Part shown: in pieces, positions 5,733 through 24,175 of the stretch
How the letters are laid out: each line of letters opens with the position of its first letter
Numbering within the stretch: position 1 is the stretch's first letter
IMG/VR virus record: IMGVR_UViG_3300048927_000297
Span: 1-25,180 of that record
Origin: a virus
DNA: 25,180 bases
Strand: one strand, 5' to 3'
Position numbers and translations under genes: made by a program
Notes under the pieces: generated by a model
What the model was told of the DNA's origin: nothing
What the model saw: only the letters and a program-made list of their open reading frames with translations
The model's database searches: none

Positions 5733-6002
5733 GCGGGGATCACTAACTAAGGAGTATTAGCCAAAACTTGAGCTAACACATTTCGTAGGTAGAACATCAT
5801 TAAATCTGACATATTAGTTTGAGTAAAAGCGGATATTCACCATATCCAGCCAGGCTGCATTGAGTAAAAAACTGATTAAAATTATTACCACTGACTAGTC
5901 GAATCCGATTTCAAAGTCAGACTTGTGAAAATATCATGCCTGTTAAACGAATTTCGGGGTATACCCCCTTATAGCAGCTATTAATTTTAAATATCAATAA
6001 AA
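5733..6002. other. AT-rich stretch with no gene
   Basis: No convincing gene. It holds a perfect 12-base palindrome GGGGTATACCCC (5956-5967), a TAAAAGCGGATATT block near 5827, and an AAGTCAGACTT block near 5912 related to motifs in other junctions of this prophage. It marks the left edge of the accessory insertion between V and S. Confidence 0.5.
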
Positions 6003-6197
6003 TCATTTTCTTTGAGAATTAAATATTCCAGTTAAAAACACTTTGAAAGTATTTATAGTTAATTTAATGTAGTTATTGCTAATAACTATATCGTCATTTT
6101 TAAATAGACTTAACCCTTCGGTTGTTTCTATGTAATTTTTAATTTTTTTCGAAATCAGGATGTTTTTAATTAGATAAATGACCATCACTATTAACAA
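6003..6197 (-). CDS. Possible small membrane-anchored protein
   Basis: A 64-residue AT-rich ORF. The N-terminus is hydrophobic (LIVMVIYLIKNILI), giving one likely membrane segment, followed by a lysine- and asparagine-rich tail. The frame opens with TTG at 6197, which has AAGGA 6 bases upstream; an internal ATG at 6185 lacks a well-placed site. No family recognised. It could be a real moron product or a chance frame in AT-rich DNA. Confidence 0.4.
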   Translation of the reverse strand: MLIVMVIYLIKNILISKKIKNYIETTEGLSLFKNDDIVISNNYIKLTINTFKVFLTGIFNSQRK

Positions 6198-6278
6198 GAA
6201 TATTCCTTATTTTGTTTATGAGCAGAATGTTCGGCCACTCTTCACTGTTATCGTTGAATGCTGAATAATAATGGGCAA

Positions 6279-6485
6279 TTACTCTTGTATCTCATGATAT
6301 TCACTGTAAATTTCAGCAGAATAGTATTTCCAGTCTTCATGGTCAATTTTTTCGGTTACTCTCTTCATTGTCTCATCCAAATTATCCTCGTAAAGCTTTA
6401 AAGATTTATCAAGTATTGATGTTGAAATGACTAATTTACCCATGAGATCTAATGATTTTCTCTCTAAATATCTAAATCTTTCCAT
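6279..6485 (-). CDS. Small acidic protein of unknown function
   Basis: A 68-residue ORF starting with ATG preceded by AGGA at 6 bases spacing. The predicted protein is helical and rich in acidic and lysine residues (SILDKSLKLYEDNLDETMKR). No family recognised. It sits in the AT-rich accessory insertion. The good ribosome site makes it the most likely of the three small ORFs here. Confidence 0.5.
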   Translation of the reverse strand: MERFRYLERKSLDLMGKLVISTSILDKSLKLYEDNLDETMKRVTEKIDHEDWKYYSAEIYSEYHEIQE

Positions 6486-6672
6486 ACAGTATCCTATGAT
6501 TAGGTGAAATTTTTATTTTTAATGTTGGGTGTTGTTTTTCAGTAAGCGTTGAGAATTTTAAGCTTCGTTTAAATGTATTAACTACTATTGCGAGGTGATG
6601 ATGATCATCATTGGTTATTAATTTTAAAGAATTAAACGGCCATTTGGAAGATGAAAATTCTGAAAGTCTCAA
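6472..6672 (-). CDS. Doubtful small ORF
   Basis: A 66-residue frame that opens with TTG at 6672, with only a weak AGAAG upstream. It overlaps the next gene by 14 bases, as coupled genes would. The sequence (SSKWPFNSLKLITNDDHHHL) is not recognised. It may simply be the leader of the following gene. Confidence 0.25.
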   Translation of the reverse strand: MRLSEFSSSKWPFNSLKLITNDDHHHLAIVVNTFKRSLKFSTLTEKQHPTLKIKISPNHRILYGKI

Positions 6673-6967
6673 AAGTCTTCTATTGGCACTTAACGACTAC
6701 GAGCAGGAGCAGCTATGAGCGAGGAGTGGACGTTTGCATTAAAGGGAGTTTAATCCGTATAGCGGAAGCGCTCTAAAAGCGATCAGCCCGATGTAAATTG
6801 AGACTAACATATCTCTTTGAAATATTTAAACTTTCCCTTTAATCTCATGTTTATATATAATTTCACTCATTTAATTGAGATAGCCTCACATAGAGTTCAG
6901 TAACGCATGCGCGAGGCATTTTATGCAAAGAACGACCTTCTTTCAGAAGGATCGCAGCTAGGTAGTG
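6673..6967. other. Non-coding stretch within the accessory insertion
   Basis: No gene seen. It contains the block GAGGAGTGGACGTTTGC near 6720, related to motifs elsewhere in the accessory DNA, and the hairpin at 6936-6950 below the end of the 200-residue gene. Confidence 0.5.
6936..6950 (-). terminator. Weak terminator candidate after the 200-residue gene
   Basis: The arms CCTTCT and AGAAGG surround a 3-base loop, followed on the minus strand by TCGTTCTTTG. It lies about 20 bases past the stop at 6968. The T-run is poor. Confidence 0.35.
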
Positions 6968-7570
6968 TTATGAAATGGCTAAGAGGGCATTTAGTTCATG
7001 ACTACTCAGTATCTCGTGAGCCATTTGTCGAATAGCTACAAAATGTGCTTCAGTAATTGGCTGCTGAACTGATTTATCTCCCTTGGTATAAGTGAAGTAA
7101 CCAATTACTCCGTCAGTAGATAGCGCCTCATATTCTTTTGAAAGCTTGGCATCAACATGTGCTCCACCGTCCTGATTTGCTGCTGACAGAACTATTTTTC
7201 TTCGAGATAAGCGGGTTTGCGGACCAAGCACGAACACGATTTGGTCCCACCATTGACTCACTGGGATCAAATTCTCAGTGGAGTTCAAATCGAGCGAAGC
7301 AAAATACTTACTACCACCATTACCTAATTGTATTGTACCAAGGCCAAAATACATGACTGCATCGGGCGGAGCACCCTGAGTGGTACTAAGCAAATTGATC
7401 GTCGTTGCGTTCAAATGTTTTAGAAGAGATGTGGAAGCCTTTGTGTTATGCACCAAAACTCGAATTATTGTCGCCATGCGAATCGCTTCGTCAGTTGCGC
7501 CCCCATCATAGGCTTCGCAGGATCGTGCAAGGAACGTAAGTTGTCTTCTGAGATGGGTTCGAAAATCCAT
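6968..7570 (-). CDS. Accessory protein of unknown function, 200 residues
   Basis: A clear gene: the ATG at 7570 is preceded by AAAGGTG at good spacing, and an upstream in-frame TTG is less likely. The N-terminal third is helical (DFRTHLRRQLTFLARSCEAY, then DEAIRMATIIRVLVHNT and STSLLKHLN). The rest appears to be a mixed beta domain with QWWDQIVFV and GVIGYFTYTKGDKS. It resembles scattered conserved hypothetical proteins, but I recognise no named family or catalytic motif. It lies alone in the insertion between S and V, where P2 relatives carry cargo such as orf30. A defence or conversion role is only an inference from position. Confidence 0.8.
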   Translation of the reverse strand: MDFRTHLRRQLTFLARSCEAYDGGATDEAIRMATIIRVLVHNTKASTSLLKHLNATTINLLSTTQGAPPDAVMYFGLGTIQLGNGGSKYFASLDLNSTENLIPVSQWWDQIVFVLGPQTRLSRRKIVLSAANQDGGAHVDAKLSKEYEALSTDGVIGYFTYTKGDKSVQQPITEAHFVAIRQMAHEILSSHELNALLAIS

Positions 7571-7935
7571 TTGTGCACCTTTCAATTTAGTGAGCGGAGA
7601 AATTCTATGTAATCATAAGTTCTATTACTTCTATGGAATGAAGGTGAGAAATTTCATAGATTTTGAACTCAACCAACAAAAGGGATTGAATGATAGTGTC
7701 AGATGCGTAAGCAAAAAGAAAGCTTCAAATAAGGGTTTTTGGGGATTTGTTACGTATGCTGAAATTTACTAATAAAGATCGTAAGTAACCAATGGTTTTA
7801 GTTCCTTGTAAGTATTCCAGCAAACAAGCCCATCCGCCTTTATATATCAGACCTAACGTGCGGTGCCATTTGCAATTTCTGTTTCTGGCTCAGAGCTGCC
7901 TGTCAGATTAGGTTTGGCTCTGTGCCACACCTGTG
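7571..7935. other. Intergenic stretch upstream of the 200-residue gene
   Basis: No convincing gene; a 60-residue plus-strand frame at 7590-7772 lacks a ribosome site. The stretch should hold the promoter of the minus-strand gene. It also contains TAACCAATGGTT at 7786-7797, which recurs after Q, and most of the 90-bp repeat at 7868-7956. Confidence 0.5.
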
Positions 7936-15390: not shown

Positions 15391-16422
15391 ATGAGTAAGC
15401 GCAAATTCCGCAAGGCGACACAAACAACCGTCACAGCAGCCGCACGGCAGACAAGCGGCGCGGAGGCGTTCAGCTTTGGCGACCCGACGCCGGTGTTAGA
15501 CCGCCGTGAAATCCTGGATTACATCGAATGCTCGGGGAACGGCCAGTGGTATGAGCCGCCGGTCAGCTTTGACGGACTGGCACGCACGCTGCGGGCAGCG
15601 GTGCATCACAGTTCATCGCTGTATGTGAAACGTAATATCCTGGCCTCAACCTTCGTCCCGCACCCGTTACTATCACAGCAGGAATTCAGCCGGTTTGCCC
15701 TAGATTACCTGGTATTCGGAAATTCGTTTTTAGAAGTGATCCGCAACCAGCTCGGCGACGCCGTGGTGATGAAAACCGTGCCTGCAAAATATGCCCGCCG
15801 AGGGGTTGAGGAGAATACTTACTGGTTTGTGCAGCAATGGAAGGAGGCCCATCAGTTCGAAACAGGCAGCGTATTTCATCTGATTGAGCCGGACATTAAT
15901 CAGGAGCTGTACGGCCTGCCGGAATATCTCAGCGCCCTGAACTCAGCCTGGCTGAATGAGGCCGCTACGCTGTTCCGCCGCAAGTACTACCAGAACGGCG
16001 CGCACGCCGGATACATCCTGTACATGACTGACGCGGCACAGAGCAGCAGTGATATTGACCAGATGCGTAAGGCGATGCGTGACACAAAAGGCCTGGGCAA
16101 TTTCCGCAACCTGTTCATGTACGCGCCGAACGGCAAACCGGACGGGATCAAAATTCTGCCGTTAAGTGAAGTCGCAACCAAAGACGATTTCTTCAATATC
16201 AAGAAAGCCAGCCAGAACGATTTGCTGTGCGCGCACCGTGTGCCGCCTCAGATGATGGGCATTATTCCGGAGAACAGCGGGGGCTTTGGTGATTCAGTGA
16301 AAGCCTCGCAGGTGTTTGTTCGAAATGAGCTGACACCGCTGCAGGAACGGTTTAAAGAATTAAATGCGTGGTTTGGGGGGGAGGTGATCAAGTTTACTTC
16401 TTACGAACTGACACCAGAATAA
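15391..16422 (+). CDS. Q: Portal protein, gpQ-like
   Basis: A 343-residue portal (P2 gpQ 344), the dodecameric ring at the capsid vertex. Family segments include ILDYIECSGNGQWYEPPVSF, HHSSSLYVKRNILASTFVPH, DYLVFGNSFLEVIRNQLGDA and HRVPPQMMGIIPENSGGFGD. It is coupled to P by a 1-base gap. Its end marks the border of the accessory region. Confidence 0.96.
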   Translation: MSKRKFRKATQTTVTAAARQTSGAEAFSFGDPTPVLDRREILDYIECSGNGQWYEPPVSFDGLARTLRAAVHHSSSLYVKRNILASTFVPHPLLSQQEFSRFALDYLVFGNSFLEVIRNQLGDAVVMKTVPAKYARRGVEENTYWFVQQWKEAHQFETGSVFHLIEPDINQELYGLPEYLSALNSAWLNEAATLFRRKYYQNGAHAGYILYMTDAAQSSSDIDQMRKAMRDTKGLGNFRNLFMYAPNGKPDGIKILPLSEVATKDDFFNIKKASQNDLLCAHRVPPQMMGIIPENSGGFGDSVKASQVFVRNELTPLQERFKELNAWFGGEVIKFTSYELTPE

Positions 16423-16508: not shown

Positions 16509-17354
16509 TCAATACTCAATGAATTGGATATCATTAAAAATAATGTCTAAACACTGCTTACCCGTTTGAGTTATTTTTCCACTTTCATCTAGCACAGCCT
16601 CTCCCATAGGACGCTCATCGTAATAACCACTAAACTTATACCCTGGATTATTTTCATCATGTTCAATTTCTTTAATTATCATTAATTTCAGATCGTCATC
16701 ATTCAATTTAGGATTTAACTTCTTAATTGTAAGACATAGTTTGATTAATTTTACTATCCTACCAGGTGATAATTTAAAAGTATTTTTATTCGCCTCAGCG
16801 TAATCATATTCGCAATCATAATTTTCGCACTGGAACTTATAAGAAGCCCTACCAAATTCTTTATCATTGCATGGAGCTCCAACCACCGCCTCTCTTAATA
16901 AAGTTAAGAAGCCACTATTAAATAAAATATTAGATTCTGAAAAAGAAACGCAAATATTATTAGATACACCTTCCTCATTGTAAATGTAATGATACTCATA
17001 AGGTATATGACCTTCATGAACATCATTACACCTAAAAACTTTGTAAATCATTTCTTGTAGGGCTTCTTTATCAGGGGTTAATTTTATTAATTCCTTGTAA
17101 TAAGCATTCTCACCTAAAACGAATCCCAGTATTTCAGGTATCCTCACTCCAAGAAATCTTTTATACCTTTCCGCATTTCCCATATCACCTTTAGATTTTC
17201 CATCATATAGTGACTTGGTGCCCTTAGGGAAAACCAATATCGCTGAAGCATCTATAGCAGTTAACAAAAGGAGAAGTGCAGATTCATATCGACCATTTTT
17301 TATCAAAAAATCCGAATCCTCAATTCTCTTTGCAATATAACCATGATTACCCAT
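16509..17354 (-). CDS. HEPN-like accessory protein, possible RNase
   Basis: A 281-residue AT-rich gene. The ATG at 17354 has a strong AGGAGG just upstream. The N-terminal half looks like a HEPN fold: a long helix GRYESALLLLLTAIDASAIL (about 21-40), then VFRCNDVHEGH with R108 and H113 in the R-x4-H arrangement of HEPN RNases. The C-terminal half is not recognised (KFQCENYDCEYDYAEANKNT, then LSPGRIVKLIKLCLTIKKLN). It is alone, convergent with Q, and differs in base composition from the phage genes. A toxin or abortive-infection RNase is the likely role, but no antitoxin neighbour is seen. Confidence 0.8.
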   Translation of the reverse strand: MGNHGYIAKRIEDSDFLIKNGRYESALLLLLTAIDASAILVFPKGTKSLYDGKSKGDMGNAERYKRFLGVRIPEILGFVLGENAYYKELIKLTPDKEALQEMIYKVFRCNDVHEGHIPYEYHYIYNEEGVSNNICVSFSESNILFNSGFLTLLREAVVGAPCNDKEFGRASYKFQCENYDCEYDYAEANKNTFKLSPGRIVKLIKLCLTIKKLNPKLNDDDLKLMIIKEIEHDENNPGYKFSGYYDERPMGEAVLDESGKITQTGKQCLDIIFNDIQFIEY

Positions 17355-17972
17355 AACCCCTCCTATCAAGCATAATTAATATGAAATATACCATTTTGAT
17401 TTGAAACAATCCCGCCATTCCATTTTTCAGTTTAGCTGTCATGTCCTTGATATAATGAAAGTCAGTCCGATCGCAATATTTTCTATTTGGATTTTTGATG
17501 AGTTTATTTATCTCAACGCTCAACCAAAAAATTAGGTAATTAAAAAATTAAGTGCCAATTCACTCGCACCATACCGGTATGCTTTTGAGGTTCATTGAGT
17601 GATGCCCGATTCAACCCCGATTATTTTTTAAACTCCTAGTGACATACTCCCAATTGATTAAAATAGAATAATGCTAACCAGATCTGCTTCTGGCACTCAA
17701 CTATCTTTCAGACCTAATTACTTCCAGACTAAAAAAGTTTTCAGACTTGTTATAAGCTCATGTATTTTAGGGAAGATTTTATTTCATTACTTACCCTATT
17801 GGCATAAGTCCTTAGCCAATAGTTGCATTCGAATATGTACGTCGATCCTTATATGCCGTTAATCATTCTGTATTATCTATGCTACGCAGAAATGTTTCTG
17901 TCAAGAACCGTCGTAAAAAAAAGTCCCGCGCTGCTGAGTGGTTCATTTTGACGTTCCACACCCTGGAGCGCG

Positions 17973-18154: not shown

Positions 18155-18245
18155 TATTAGCTCAGACTTGACCTCACACAACTACGGCACAGAGCCAAAA
18201 CGAATCTGACAGGCAGCCCTGTGCCAGAAGCAGACATTGCTAAAT
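18155..18245 (-). repeat. Copy B of a ~90-bp repeat (inverted relative to 7868-7956)
   Basis: The reverse complement matches 7868-7956 at about 85% by eye, with one small gap. It lies between the cos candidate and the IS903 remnant. Unlike copy A it is not attached to an S gene. Confidence 0.85.
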
Positions 18246-18276: not shown

Positions 18277-18505
18277 AATTACAATCGCCGCACGATAGCG
18301 GAAACGGCGATGCACAGAGTAAAACCGTTGTTTGGTGGCTCTCAGATGCTGCGTGACTACGATGGGCAGGTCGCAGAGGCTCTGGCCATGGTGTGCGCAC
18401 TGAACAAAATGACAAAAGCAGCCATGCCTAAAAGCGTGCGTATTGCCTGAAAACCCGGCCTGCTACAGAGACGCTCGTCCGGAGTCTGATTTATTCAACA
18501 ATGCC
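18277..18505 (+). mobile_element. 3' remnant of an IS903-type (IS5 family) insertion sequence
   Basis: Codons 18277-18450 encode the last 57 residues of an IS903-type transposase (NYNRRTIAETAMHRVKPLFG, then LRDYDGQVAEALAMV and ALNKMTKAAMPKSVRIA), close to the known IS903 C-terminus. The right inverted repeat follows at 18488-18505: GATTTATTCAACAATGCC differs from the IS903 end at one position. The left end and most of the transposase are missing, so it cannot move on its own. Its right edge abuts the replication-gene fragment. Confidence 0.9.
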
Positions 18506-18744
18506 AATTTCTACCCCCACTTGATGAAAGTGAAGTCATCGGGATAGCTAAAATAATTTCTAAATGTAAACACAAGATACTTTCTTTTAATAGTTCCTCA
18601 GAGTATGTTAAATCGACCCACTTTTCTGAAATTAAAGTTGTAAGAGTAAAGAAAAGTAAGGGGGGTAGACCATCGTTAGGAAACCCTTGGACAGAAATGA
18701 ATATTAGCAGTTCTAAATACTTTAGGATGAAAAAGGAAAAAAGC
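18505..18744 (+). pseudogene. 3' fragment of a primase/replication-protein gene
   Basis: In frame from just after the IS end the translation reads LPPLDESEVIGIAKIISKCK, then FSEIKVVRVKKSKGGRPSLG and NPWTEMNISSSKYFRMKKEK. The first part resembles the PriCT helical domain of plasmid and phage primase/Rep proteins; the last resembles their C-terminal tail (GRPS..PW...GIS..YYR.KK). The rest was lost at the IS junction. No stop codon separates this frame from the DUF262 start at 18745. Confidence 0.55.
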
Positions 18745-19809
18745 ATGAGTGACGTAGAAGATCAGATAAAAGAATTAAAAAAAGAAGTTGATTTTGACAC
18801 AAGAGACTTCACGATAGAAATTATCGTACAGAAATACAATAAACGTCTAGATGAAGGTGAGAACGAGATTTTTGTTCCTGACTATCAAAGGGATTTTGTA
18901 TGGGATGAAGAACGCCAATCAAAAATGATTGAATCTATAATTCTCGGATTGCCCATTCCGTCTATTTTTGTTGCTGAAGATGTAAGCGGTAGACTTGAAA
19001 TAGTTGATGGTTCTCAAAGAATAAGAACGTTGAGTGCCTTTATTAATGAAGAGTTAATACTTTCCGAGTTGGGCAAAGTAACATCATTGAATGGTAAGAG
19101 GTTTAGTGATCTAGATGAGTCAAGGAAAAGGAAATTTAATAATACAGCAATTAGTATGATTGTTCTATCCGAAGATACCACCCCTGACATGAGGAACGAT
19201 CTTTTCGAAAGGATTAACAAAGGCAGTGATATCCTTAGAGGGATGGAGGTTAGGAAAGGTATTTACACAGGGGAATTTACTGACTTTATTTATAAGGAAT
19301 GCTCTGTGAATAGTAATTTTAGATCGCTAGTCCACCTAGCTAGCTCTGTGAAAAACAGACAGGAATATGAAGAGCTTATACTGAGATTCTTTGCAATTGG
19401 GGAAAAATATCCTAAGTTCCATCCTTTTTCTAGGAATGTAGGCACTGCGCTAGATGATTACATAAAAGATAAAAACACTTCATTTACGCCAGAAGAAAAA
19501 GAAATAATGTCTTGTTCATTTAATAGAATGGTTAACTTTGTTAAAAATAACTTTCTTTTTGGATTTTCAAAAGATAATGGAAAGGATACATCTAGGATGT
19601 TTTTTGAGGCTATATCTGTTGGTGTTCATCTAGCTTTGGAAGAAAACCCAGAATTAATAATTAAAGAGAAAATAGATGCAAGGAATTTATTGAGAGATCC
19701 AGCTTTCAAAAACTTCACCATGGGGAAATATAAAACGCACTCAAATGAATCATTGAAAGGAAGGATCGATTTTATTAAAAATAAAGTCTTGAATATGGGT
19801 TCTTTATAG
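18745..19809 (+). CDS. DUF262 protein, partner of a HEPN protein
   Basis: A 354-residue protein with the DUF262 (GmrSD N-terminal, ParB/Srx-like) fold. Motifs are VPDYQRDFVW (44-53), IVDGSQRIRTL (86-96, the DGxQR nucleotide-binding signature) and LFERINKGSDIL (153-164). The C-terminal half is helical, and no DUF1524 HNH nuclease follows as in GmrSD. I chose the ATG at 18745 because AAGGA precedes it; the frame is also open upstream into the replication-gene fragment, with an ATG at 18697. One base separates it from the HEPN gene. DUF262 proteins usually act as NTP-dependent sensors or nuclease regulators in anti-phage systems. Confidence 0.88.
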   Translation: MSDVEDQIKELKKEVDFDTRDFTIEIIVQKYNKRLDEGENEIFVPDYQRDFVWDEERQSKMIESIILGLPIPSIFVAEDVSGRLEIVDGSQRIRTLSAFINEELILSELGKVTSLNGKRFSDLDESRKRKFNNTAISMIVLSEDTTPDMRNDLFERINKGSDILRGMEVRKGIYTGEFTDFIYKECSVNSNFRSLVHLASSVKNRQEYEELILRFFAIGEKYPKFHPFSRNVGTALDDYIKDKNTSFTPEEKEIMSCSFNRMVNFVKNNFLFGFSKDNGKDTSRMFFEAISVGVHLALEENPELIIKEKIDARNLLRDPAFKNFTMGKYKTHSNESLKGRIDFIKNKVLNMGSL

Positions 19810-19810
19810 A

Positions 19811-20431
19811 ATGAATAGTGTCATTAAAAATGATTTTATATCTAGGTGCTCTGACATTAGGTGTCTACATGAACATTTAATTAATGTTAGTAACTGTAGT
19901 GGGACGGTTAAAATATCTTCAATTATAAAATCATCCATTTTTATGGCTTTATATAATAACGTTGAGGCCACGTTTTACTCTTTATTTGAGCGTATACATA
20001 GTGAAGCAAGTAAAATCCCATTCTCTCTGCTAGATGTAAAGCTGGCAACTATATTTAAAAATTTTTATTCTGATGGTGAAAATGCATCTAATGATATTTT
20101 ACACGAGCTTAAATTTCCAACTCTGAAAATTTATATCAAGAAGAAAAAGATATTTTCTGGTAATCTTGATGTAAGAAGAGCAATGGCTTTGTTTAAAGTC
20201 TATGGAATAGAATTTGATCCTAGTTTCAGTAAAAAAAAGTCAACAAGCCTAGTGATTATTAAGAATAAAAGAAATGCCATTGCACATGGTGAGCTTTCTT
20301 TTCCTGATGCTGGGAAATCTTTCAGCTATCAGAGAATCCTAGACCTGATAAATGATTCTGAAGGTATCTTATCTGATTTCATAGATCAGGCTGAATTATA
20401 TCTTATCAGGTTAAAAAGTAAGGTTCATTGA
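19811..20431 (+). CDS. HEPN-like nuclease (MAE_28990/MAE_18760 type)
   Basis: A 206-residue helical protein. R154 and H159 in IKNKRNAIAHGELSF form the R-x4-H motif of HEPN ribonucleases, with the polar N after R as in active members. The N-terminal helix SIFMALYNNVEATFYSLFER resembles the MAE_28990/MAE_18760 family. The start lies 1 base after the DUF262 stop with a weak ribosome site, so translation is probably coupled. A terminator follows. I infer a two-gene unit in which the HEPN protein is the RNA-cutting effector and the DUF262 protein the sensor or inhibitor. Confidence 0.88.
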   Translation: MNSVIKNDFISRCSDIRCLHEHLINVSNCSGTVKISSIIKSSIFMALYNNVEATFYSLFERIHSEASKIPFSLLDVKLATIFKNFYSDGENASNDILHELKFPTLKIYIKKKKIFSGNLDVRRAMALFKVYGIEFDPSFSKKKSTSLVIIKNKRNAIAHGELSFPDAGKSFSYQRILDLINDSEGILSDFIDQAELYLIRLKSKVH

Positions 20432-20453
20432 GACTAAACAACCTATATCAGAT

Positions 20454-20483
20454 AAAAGCCCTCTCTAGAAGAGGGCTTTTTTT
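20454..20483 (+). terminator. Intrinsic terminator of the DUF262-HEPN operon
   Basis: The arms AAAAGCCCTCT and AGAGGGCTTTT flank a 5-base loop and run into a T-tract. It is 22 bases past the HEPN stop. Confidence 0.92.
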
Positions 20484-20862
20484 CAGTTGAACTGTTCCCA
20501 TTGATTAACACAAAGTAGTGTTAGTGATTGGCTCTGGGTGATAACAATCACGAACTTCTGCTTTTCGCTCACAGCGGACCTAACGAACCTCCCACAGGTT
20601 TGCTTCGTGCCAAAAGCGGACGTTCTAGACATTGTGTCGTGCTGAGTATAAGAATTACGTTTAAGTATCAGCCATACAACTCTCTTGCAAAAAAAATGCT
20701 TGATTCTCAGATATACCGATGTATTCTTGAAAAACGGAAGAGCGCTATCGTGCCCCCGTTTTATATCACATCCTTTAGCCCATAATTTTGAGCATACGGA
20801 CGAGAGATAGCCTTAGTTCCCGGGTCAAACCGGTTTATGTATGCTTAGTTATGGAGCTTTAT
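20484..20862. other. Intergenic stretch before the 272-residue gene
   Basis: No convincing gene; the 85-residue frame at 20528-20785 has no ribosome site and an unlikely composition. Two blocks, ACAGCGGACCTAACG near 20570 and CCAAAAGCGGACGTTC near 20609, belong to a motif scattered through the accessory regions. The promoter of the next gene should lie here. Confidence 0.5.
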
Positions 20863-21681
20863 ATGAAATCTAATCTTGCTCGTGACCCTATTACCATGCT
20901 GGCAGCTGTTCTCCATGATATGATTTTTCCCCACGCTGATATTTTGACCGGAAAGGAACTGGATGACAACTCAAGAATGAGGGTGATCAAAAATACCGTC
21001 TGCTATGCATTTGGGTTTAAGAGTGCTTCTGATTTGGCTAATTATATTAACCTGACCTCTCAAAAGAAACACTTTGAATTTTTCAAAGATGAATTATGCG
21101 CCAAACTGGACATACTTAAAGACAAACTCGAAGAGAGGTTTGGAAAGACTGTAAACCTCAATATTTTCAAGAGTGAATCTATCATTCTGAAAGCATCCCG
21201 TCATCCCAGCGGTCGTCATAACTTTGAATATCAAGGGGATGATCGTAGGGCGTTTCCTGTGCAATTACAGGGTTTAATGATAGGTAATACTCATTATCGG
21301 GAATTTTACCAAGCATCTTTGAAATTGTACCATTTTCTTTTGTTAGCTGGGTTCAATGTTGAATTCCCCGGACTCATAAATCAGGATGAGTTGTACGGCG
21401 TATTAATTCCAATCGATAGTAAAACTCGCATTGTATTGCGTGATTGGATTTATAGGCGTTACGCTCCTGAGGATGATGAGAAAATTCGTCAGGATATTGA
21501 TAAAAAAATATTCGAGGCTATAAAATCAATCGGGCTTGTTTTTCAGGCTAACCTTTATGGTGAGTTTGGAAAAACAATAATACCCATGAAGATTATGGAT
21601 GACGCGCAAGGTATCATGATTCCTGATGTTTATTTCACAAGAAAATCAATTCAAGACCTACAATTGTATATTTACCGGTAG
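20863..21681 (+). CDS. Accessory protein of unknown function, 272 residues
   Basis: The ATG at 20863 has GGAG at 6 bases spacing; upstream in-frame ATGs at 20788 and 20851 fit less well. The protein begins MKSNLARDPITMLAAVLHDM, with a helical region around CYAFGFKSASDLANYINLTS, a lysine-rich helix (KLDILKDKLEERFGKTVNLN), then YREFYQASLKLYHFLLLAGF and a basic IVLRDWIYRRYAPEDDEKIR. No signal peptide, membrane segment or recognised catalytic motif. It faces A and is the last cargo gene, in the position of P2 tin/old, which exclude other phages. A defence role is inferred from position only. Confidence 0.8.
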   Translation: MKSNLARDPITMLAAVLHDMIFPHADILTGKELDDNSRMRVIKNTVCYAFGFKSASDLANYINLTSQKKHFEFFKDELCAKLDILKDKLEERFGKTVNLNIFKSESIILKASRHPSGRHNFEYQGDDRRAFPVQLQGLMIGNTHYREFYQASLKLYHFLLLAGFNVEFPGLINQDELYGVLIPIDSKTRIVLRDWIYRRYAPEDDEKIRQDIDKKIFEAIKSIGLVFQANLYGEFGKTIIPMKIMDDAQGIMIPDVYFTRKSIQDLQLYIYR

Positions 21682-21698
21682 GGATAAGTAAATTGAAA

Positions 21699-21735
21699 AA
21701 ATAAGAAATCGATTTAAAACCCCGGTTTCTTATTT
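21699..21735. terminator. Possible two-way terminator
   Basis: Perfect 10-base arms AAATAAGAAA and TTTCTTATTT flank a 17-base spacer, 17 bases past the 272-residue gene. It is AT-rich with a long loop, so its strength is uncertain. Confidence 0.4.
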
Positions 21736-21838
21736 ACTCCCATCCGGATTTATTTGGTGCACCACAAAACCGTTGACCTGCTCCCTGATAACCCACTCAG
21801 AAGGCTGTTAGCAGTGTCCGTTGATCGCTCAATCCAGA

Positions 21839-21888
21839 CTGTCAGATTTGATGATGTTTTACCTCGGATCAAGTCTGAAATAATACAC
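21839..21888 (+). repeat. Degenerate third copy of the 90-bp repeat
   Basis: It shares CTGTCAGATT and TCAAGTCTGA followed by TAATACA with copies A and B, in the same order but about 11 bases closer together. It lies immediately past the end of gene A. Confidence 0.45.
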
Positions 21889-21889
21889 A

Positions 21890-24175
21890 TCATTCAAACT
21901 CAGCCCAATCCGGCATCGGTTCAAAACTCATAACCAGATTACCAAAGCTGATTTCCGCTCCACGGCTCAGCGCTTCCAATTCCCAGCGTTCAGCCGTTAT
22001 GTTGTGTTTCATCAATTCGCTTTCTATTTCCGGCAATCGCGCCCGTTCTTCTCCCGTCAATCTTGCCGATGGGGCAACATCACGGCCTTTTGTCGGATCG
22101 AAACTGCGCTGTGCACTGCTGACTCTCGGCGTTTCCTCGCGTATACGTGCCACAACAGCCTTCATGGCCGCAGTGTCGGCCCAGTCAATTACCATTTGGT
22201 TGGCAGAAATGAACGCTGTAGCGGCGCTCCCAGCCTGGCTATCTCGCCCATTTGCGGCGGCTTTCTTTCCACCTAACCCACAGTTATTGACAGGACTCCG
22301 AGGCGCGCCGGAGGCGCTTATTAAATTCAAAGGATGAACGGCAACTTCAACAGCCTTGGCGACAATGCGCCATTTTGTTGTGCGGGTTTCGTGGATGAGG
22401 TCAGTACCAAGATGAGGCGCATAAACGCCGATGACTTTCTGGATCTCCTCATCGTACTCGTTCAACTCATCAATCACTTGGCGGGCGGTTCTTACCGTTT
22501 GCTCGTCGCGGGGGACATTCGCCCCACCCTGCGCAGAAATATATGCGGCAAAATCACCACTGTCTGCCGCTGCTCTTGCAGCTTCAACAAGTTCGTCAAA
22601 CTCGCTAGCGATGCTCACGCCACGCGGTAATCTGCGCAGCTCACGATAGGCACCCATCGTGGGTACGCCAATAGATTTAAATTGCGGGATACGCCACGTA
22701 GAAGCCCATGCAGTAACCGCAGCGGCGGTTTCTGATAGCGGCTTGCCCGTATCGTTATCCAGCTCACCATCGAGCGCGTAACCATCAATATTTTTAGCGA
22801 TGTATTTGGCGATATAACCTGCCGCACCGCCTTTGTTCATATGCTTGCACTGAAAGCGTTGCTTTTCCGCGCCGCGCTCTTGACCGTCTTCTTTCAGGGC
22901 ATAACGGCGCATGATATCTACAGCCGCCTGACGCTGCGTGCGCTCGCAAAACAGCATCATGTGCCAGTGAGGTGTAGCATCATGGTGCGGCTCCACAACT
23001 CGCATACCGTAAACCCTGACACCGGCATCTTTAAACGCCGTGCGCATTTTGCTCCAGATTTTTACCAGATAACGCTGACCGTCTTTGGGTGAAAATGCCA
23101 ACTCATCCCACTTGTGGTTAAAATTAACTTGGCGTTTTTCTTTCTTCCCGACCTGACGTGTTGGATGATATTTGGAAGGCGTGGTGATGGTAATAAACAT
23201 GCCGACATGCCCAGCACTGGCGGCATATTTTTCAATCCCGGCAATCGTGCTCATCAGCTCCATACGACGGATTTCAGGATTAGAGATACTTCCCATCACC
23301 TTATCAATGAGATCTATGCGCTCGCCGGTTTCGATGTTCTCTAAATCGCAGGATTTGAGATATTCCATATTCGCTAAACGACGAGCCCGGACATCACGAA
23401 TGGCCTGCTTGCTGGCATAACCAGACTTCTGAAGACTCACCTCCCCTACAGCGATCAGAAGAGATTCGCGCCACTGCGTGCGCTGCGCTTTTAACTGCCG
23501 GATCCACCACTCGTCATTCACCAGCCGCGCGACACTGGAGAATGCAGCGCGCATATCCAGTTTGCGTTTGCGATATTTCTGCCAGTGCATAGGCGTGATA
23601 TTAAAAACGCGGGCAGCACCGGCAACCTCACCATAAATTTTTTGCTGTGCGCTGTCGGTGAATAGCTTGGCTTGAACTCCATTGTGCTGACTTAGAAGCT
23701 GATCGCTCTGCTCTTCATATTCGGTGAACAACCGGGATGAAATTTGCATAGCGAGACGTTTCAGCGCTTTGTCATTCATACCCGCTAGCTGGCGGTAGCT
23801 CTCGGCTTCATCGGTAAATATTTCGTTAGTTCGACCATTTAAAATCAGCTCATATTTAGCCTGTACGACTTCGATACGTGGCCAAATGCGTGGCATAAAA
23901 ACGTTGATGAGATAGCGGTGAGCAGCCAATAATCCCGTGCTTTCTTTTAGGTATTCATACCGGCCATAGAAAATGCCACTTAGAAAAAATGGCAGCGCGT
24001 GGATTTTACGTAAGGCATCTTGCCCCTGATGGAATTCATCACGGGTAAGAGGTCTTTCTTTTGAGATTGCTGGGCGGGGAGCATTCCAAGGGTATGCGCC
24101 AACAAAAAGAGGTTTGTTGGCAGTATCGAATTTTGGAGGAGGAGATGGGGCAATGCGCCCCCGAACATAATTCAT
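21890..24175 (-). CDS. A: Replication initiator, P2 gpA-like
   Basis: A 761-residue rolling-circle initiator, exactly the length of P2 gpA. It nicks the origin and joins covalently to the 5' end through a tyrosine. The segment PHWHMMLFC (402-410) is the HUH-type metal site. Y454 and Y458 in AAGYIAKYIAKNIDGY are the active-site pair, equivalent to P2 Y450/Y454. Other near-exact P2 stretches are ERPLTRDEFHQGQ, VMGSISNPEIRRMELM and TWRIPQFKSIGVPTMGAYRE. The ATG aligns with P2, but no strong Shine-Dalgarno is present, so it may depend on read-through translation or an upstream leader. Confidence 0.97.
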   Translation of the reverse strand: MNYVRGRIAPSPPPKFDTANKPLFVGAYPWNAPRPAISKERPLTRDEFHQGQDALRKIHALPFFLSGIFYGRYEYLKESTGLLAAHRYLINVFMPRIWPRIEVVQAKYELILNGRTNEIFTDEAESYRQLAGMNDKALKRLAMQISSRLFTEYEEQSDQLLSQHNGVQAKLFTDSAQQKIYGEVAGAARVFNITPMHWQKYRKRKLDMRAAFSSVARLVNDEWWIRQLKAQRTQWRESLLIAVGEVSLQKSGYASKQAIRDVRARRLANMEYLKSCDLENIETGERIDLIDKVMGSISNPEIRRMELMSTIAGIEKYAASAGHVGMFITITTPSKYHPTRQVGKKEKRQVNFNHKWDELAFSPKDGQRYLVKIWSKMRTAFKDAGVRVYGMRVVEPHHDATPHWHMMLFCERTQRQAAVDIMRRYALKEDGQERGAEKQRFQCKHMNKGGAAGYIAKYIAKNIDGYALDGELDNDTGKPLSETAAAVTAWASTWRIPQFKSIGVPTMGAYRELRRLPRGVSIASEFDELVEAARAAADSGDFAAYISAQGGANVPRDEQTVRTARQVIDELNEYDEEIQKVIGVYAPHLGTDLIHETRTTKWRIVAKAVEVAVHPLNLISASGAPRSPVNNCGLGGKKAAANGRDSQAGSAATAFISANQMVIDWADTAAMKAVVARIREETPRVSSAQRSFDPTKGRDVAPSARLTGEERARLPEIESELMKHNITAERWELEALSRGAEISFGNLVMSFEPMPDWAEFE
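22287..22307 (-). other. ori: Replication origin nick region inside gene A
   Basis: The minus strand reads CGCGCCTCGGAGTCCTGTCA followed by A. As I recall it, this is the P2 ori sequence cut by gpA. It lies in the 3' part of A, as in P2, over codons for the conserved APRSPVNNCG. Single-stranded displacement would start here. Confidence 0.85.

Follow-up and report, generated by a model that had tools for sequence, protein, structure and literature searches.

An orphan gene at the Q-A hotspot of a phage related to P2: a tentative candidate for a single-gene exclusion factor

The Q-A region and its cargo

The window, that is the whole stretch of DNA analysed here (25,180 nucleotides of the IMG/VR virus record IMGVR_UViG_3300048927_000297), belongs to a P2-like phage whose nearest named relatives are P2-like phages of Yersinia, Erwinia, Salmonella and Escherichia, which share ~74-76% identity with it across portions of the genome. 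Between its genes Q and A, which border a variable region, lies an orphan gene encoding the protein P0001 (Table 1). This is the tin/old position: P2 keeps its tin and old genes in the Q-A stretch, which has been published as a hotspot for anti-phage systems (PMC9122126; PMC9519451), and in related phages it is occupied by unrelated cargo (DUF4238, VbhT, paraMORC3 with Dcm, an exonuclease). No P2 cos sequence was found in the window at up to 3 mismatches. The stretch from 16.5 to 21.9 kb is AT-rich throughout (GC 0.29-0.50). At third codon positions, the GC content of the orphan gene is 0.37, compared with 0.50 in A and 0.66-0.74 in Q, P and N, and its composition is foreign to the phage core. 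The same hotspot holds an AT-rich 286-aa gene (16509-17369, - strand), for which no match was obtained in Pfam, PHROGs, NCBIfam or PADLOC, and the remnant of an IS903/IS5-family transposase (18278-18506), ~82% identical to IS903.

Table 1. Features of the Q-A region and of the orphan gene.
Feature	Position	Strand	Details and basis
Q, portal protein (Phage_portal); left border of variable region	15391..16422	+	
DUF262 (GmrSD_N) gene, then HEPN_MAE_28990 gene; neighbouring cargo	18697..20431	+	
Terminator closing the HEPN gene, between it and the orphan gene	20454..20480	+	11-pair stem followed by a T-run; terminator scan
GGAG ribosome-binding site of the orphan gene	20853..20856	+	6 nt 5' of the ATG
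Orphan gene (P0001)	20863..21681	+	272 aa; ATG at 20863, TAG stop at 21681; ORF call and two relatives
N-terminal all-helical region, residues 1-104	20863..21174	+	helices 9-21, 35-49, 55-65, 70-80 and 82-93; AlphaFold model and alignment
HPSG domain, residues 105-168	21175..21366	+	beta hairpin, then strand, helix, strand; profile and model
C-terminal region, residues 169-272	21367..21678	+	common only to the two full-length relatives and L006
Possible terminator stem 3' of the orphan gene	21699..21735	+	13 pairs, AT-rich
A, replication endonuclease (Phage_GPA); right border of variable region	21890..24175	-	

The cargo that precedes the orphan gene is of defence type, the DUF262-HEPN pair resembling the PADLOC models NsnA and PD-T4-2_A. 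The orphan gene could be envisaged as a third component of this system, as it lies 430 bp downstream of the pair, on the same strand and within the same hotspot. We consider this very improbable: a strong terminator stands between the two, the pair is absent from the flanks examined of both full-length relatives of the orphan gene, and the Moraxella phage Mcat24 carries the same pair beside a DNA methylase that is unrelated to the orphan protein, with no relative of the orphan gene. In the contexts compared, the orphan gene does not travel with the pair, which is most likely a separate system. Copies of GTGCCARAAGCRGACRTT lie at 17679-17696 (-), 18221-18238 (+), 20553-20570 (-) and 20607-20624 (+), as inverted pairs flanking the DUF262-HEPN cassette. 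Six matches were counted against 0.13 expected, for a pattern that was itself drawn from two of the copies, and it may represent a palindromic repeat of intergenic DNA that travelled along with the cassette.

The orphan gene and its full-length relatives

An earlier note on this DNA had described a well-formed gene beside A, at the tin/old site, with a good ribosome-binding site and terminators on both sides. The placement is borne out by the bordering genes, Q (Phage_portal) to the left and A (Phage_GPA) to the right, and the 272-aa reading frame is confirmed, with a 300-codon open run that is longer than any in 500 base shuffles of positions 20431-21890 (maximum 176); the GGAG motif lies 6 nt ahead of the ATG. 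As for the terminators, the upstream one looks real but ends the HEPN gene, and the downstream stem, which has a z of -1.5 and was not flagged by the terminator scan, is only plausible as a terminator of the orphan gene. Nothing stood out in a promoter scan near the gene, promoter-like sites being fewer than in shuffles. The coding status is independently supported by two full-length relatives at 43-45% identity. The very small number of relatives might be taken to indicate a decaying or spurious reading frame devoid of function, a proposition that is scarcely credible for a frame that is intact, has a ribosome site, exceeds every shuffle and is conserved over its full length in two other contexts.

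The first of these relatives is WP_305737706.1, a hypothetical protein encoded by the conjugative plasmid pKS2022 of Kosakonia sacchari (45% identity), and the second is encoded by the chromosome of Klebsiella sp. BIGb0407 (43% identity); they are 61% identical to one another. The Kosakonia protein is thus similar to the orphan protein over its full length, but it is found on a conjugative plasmid near the defence gene Tmn and not in a P2-like phage. The Tmn gene, which is full-length (1950 bits), is located one gene away, and small plasmid genes come after the relative on the other side. The gene between Tmn and the relative (L002:8377-11496) encodes a 1039-aa membrane-type protein with no Pfam or PADLOC match. 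The Klebsiella relative lies downstream of a serine recombinase, and genes for a YagK/YfjJ-type and an HNH protein are nearby. Both relatives are thus carried by other DNA of a mobile or island kind. In a survey of ~1,550 proteobacterial genomes with the family profile, it was the sole full-length member, accompanied by two partial relatives (L006 and a protein of genome G1261) and two further marginal matches (E 0.006-0.008). The family is very rare, with three full-length members including the orphan protein.

The orphan protein has no match above threshold in Pfam, PHROGs, NCBIfam or PADLOC, and none among PDB sequences. Weak Pfam and PHROG matches to DUF4771, phrog_16858 and phrog_17561 were not significant, and the match of the full-length family profile to a coiled coil in the PDB (E 0.033) was unconvincing. 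No relative of the gene was found by tblastn among 50,697 phage records, nor in IMG/VR when it was probed with a number of queries and patterns, and a DNA search of E. coli genomes returned nothing that matched at the orphan gene. The AlphaFold model, which rests on two sequences, has a mean pLDDT of 53, with residues 35-105 fair and the C-terminal third poor, and a second model restricted to residues 96-272 was worse (pLDDT 38). When the former was compared by Foldseek with the PDB and BFVD, no E value fell below 0.1, and the reverse transcriptases among the top matches are noise. The predicted models are too poor for a mechanism to be drawn from structure. The earlier view that no family is apparent agrees with all these searches, including the structural one that it had called for, and a relationship to some phage family of housekeeping or structural proteins, which it had named as counter-evidence, was looked for and not found. 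Judged by its sequence, the orphan gene is not a housekeeping or structural gene of the phage.

The HPSG domain and its contexts

The three regions of the orphan protein (Table 1) differ in their distribution. Apart from the three full-length members, no protein was found to have the N-terminal region. L006, a protein of 209 aa, matches residues 107-260 of the orphan protein (E = 4e-9) and has a plasmid-type HTH-like stretch in place of that region; hhalign detected no match between the two (probability 0.1%). Starting from L006, small proteins sharing a domain of ~65 residues, which in the orphan protein lies in the middle, were found on plasmids of Burkholderia, Pseudomonas, Delftia and Phaeobacter, with more from two other genomes. 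We coined the names HPSG domain and HPSG-domain group for this analysis. P-S-G, N, F and G do not vary across a nine-row alignment of the domain. When a profile was built from six of the remote proteins, leaving out the full-length family, it gave the three full-length members scores of 20.8-25.0 bits (20.8 for P0001), against 7.5 bits for the highest-scoring of 3000 shuffled versions of P0001, and the orphan protein possesses the features of the group, namely a ~65-residue domain with HPSG and conserved Asn, Phe and Gly. The Burkholderia (WP_060097623.1), Pseudomonas (WP_017362388.1) and Delftia (WP_074921770.1) plasmid proteins have this domain in common with the orphan protein but are devoid of its helical N-terminal and its C-terminal regions, some possessing an HTH and others consisting of little more than the domain. 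No Pfam model matched the domain, its profile gave E values of 0.67 or worse against PDB sequences, and nothing was found when it was searched for in the phage records. On the basis of these comparisons, neither the orphan family nor the HPSG domain seems to have been described before.

The contexts of the domain elsewhere raise the main rival explanation, according to which the orphan gene encodes a plasmid-derived DNA-binding regulator or maintenance factor, for example for a recombinase or a toxin-antitoxin module, which the phage acquired and which has no direct effect on other phages. It is consistent with the XRE-type HTH (HTH_31, above cut-off) fused to the domain in the Delftia protein and with the HTH-like stretch of L006. 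Likewise, ~220-aa tyrosine recombinases are encoded upstream of the HPSG genes of Delftia, Burkholderia and genome G1191, a serine recombinase precedes the Klebsiella relative, and toxins of the MazF/PemK type are adjacent in two cases, the Burkholderia gene directly following a MazE-ChpB pair and the G1261 gene directly preceding a PemK/MazF-domain gene. We nevertheless regard a purely regulatory or maintenance role as somewhat unlikely, as the orphan protein has no recognisable HTH, its N-terminal region cannot be aligned with the plasmid HTH, and in the window no recombinase or toxin gene adjoins the orphan gene. The loci L007, L135, L137 and L142, on plasmids and genomes, hold undescribed HPSG-domain genes located by tyrosine recombinases and MazF/PemK toxins.

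A possible role in phage exclusion

Like tin and old of P2, the orphan gene lies between A and the presumed cos/Q side, in cargo of one or two genes, but there is no sequence match between their products and the orphan protein. The ATPase and TOPRIM domains of the Old family were not found in it with Pfam, and for the Tin family neither PHROGs nor a tblastn search of the phage collection, which may or may not include P2 itself, gave a match. The resemblance to the cargo described for the Q-A hotspot (Rousset et al, 2022, PMC9122126; Vassallo et al, 2022, PMC9519451) extends to place, gene size, hypothetical status and single-gene layout, and a comparable single gene of this hotspot, encoding a DUF4238 protein, blocks T7. 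The orphan protein differs from this cargo in that it falls outside the families recognised by PADLOC and that its exclusion activity is putative. The gene is hotspot cargo, probably an accessory gene acquired horizontally, and apparently forms its own transcription unit. Such cargo is a known kind of thing, the apparently new part being the orphan family with its HPSG domain.

The position of the orphan gene, its composition, its relatives and its shared domain are established. Our best guess as to its function, tentatively held, is that it is a single-gene phage-exclusion factor. This proposition is favoured by the location between Q and A, where P2 has old and tin and relatives have unrelated cargo, by the low third-position GC relative to the phage core genes, and by the absence of the gene from the phage records, with no relative found in IMG/VR either. 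It is also favoured by the Kosakonia relative, situated one gene from Tmn, and by the adjoining defence-type pair. It is weakened by several observations. The location alone is weak evidence, given that a putative partition system occupies this hotspot in about a quarter of the P2-like phages of E. coli (PMC9122126). HPSG modules adjoin recombinases and MazF-type toxins and not obvious defence operons. In addition, the orphan protein showed no recognisable effector motif, be it of a nuclease, an NTPase or another kind, and the family is very rare. Hotspot genes are not all defensive, other functions being present too (PMC9122126), which leaves room for a gene of anti-defence, of host modification or of lysogenic conversion in some other form, helping the phage or the lysogen otherwise than by exclusion. 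This is improbable, as nothing specific favours it and no anti-restriction family was matched in Pfam or PHROGs.

Should the orphan gene indeed act in exclusion, it would most likely be expressed by the lysogen, and its product alone would exclude other phages or mobile DNA. The HPSG domain may constitute the recognising or regulating part, for a nucleic acid or a partner protein, as suggested by its HTH fusions elsewhere, and the action against the invader or on the host may reside in the two flanking regions, the N-terminal helical one and the C-terminal one. A broader proposition, which we consider unlikely, is that of a new family of single-gene defence or exclusion proteins of mobile elements, built on an HPSG domain which, on plasmids, doubles as a regulatory or sensor module, fused to an HTH or beside MazF. 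If exclusion proved true, the orphan family would be added to the repertoire of the P2 hotspot, and a first function would be provided for a small domain found repeatedly on the plasmids of various Proteobacteria. Elsewhere in the window, a second AT-rich island lies among the tail genes (5900-7900, GC down to 0.28), with small ORFs and a phrog_7805 gene (6968-7585), and is perhaps a second P2 cargo hotspot.
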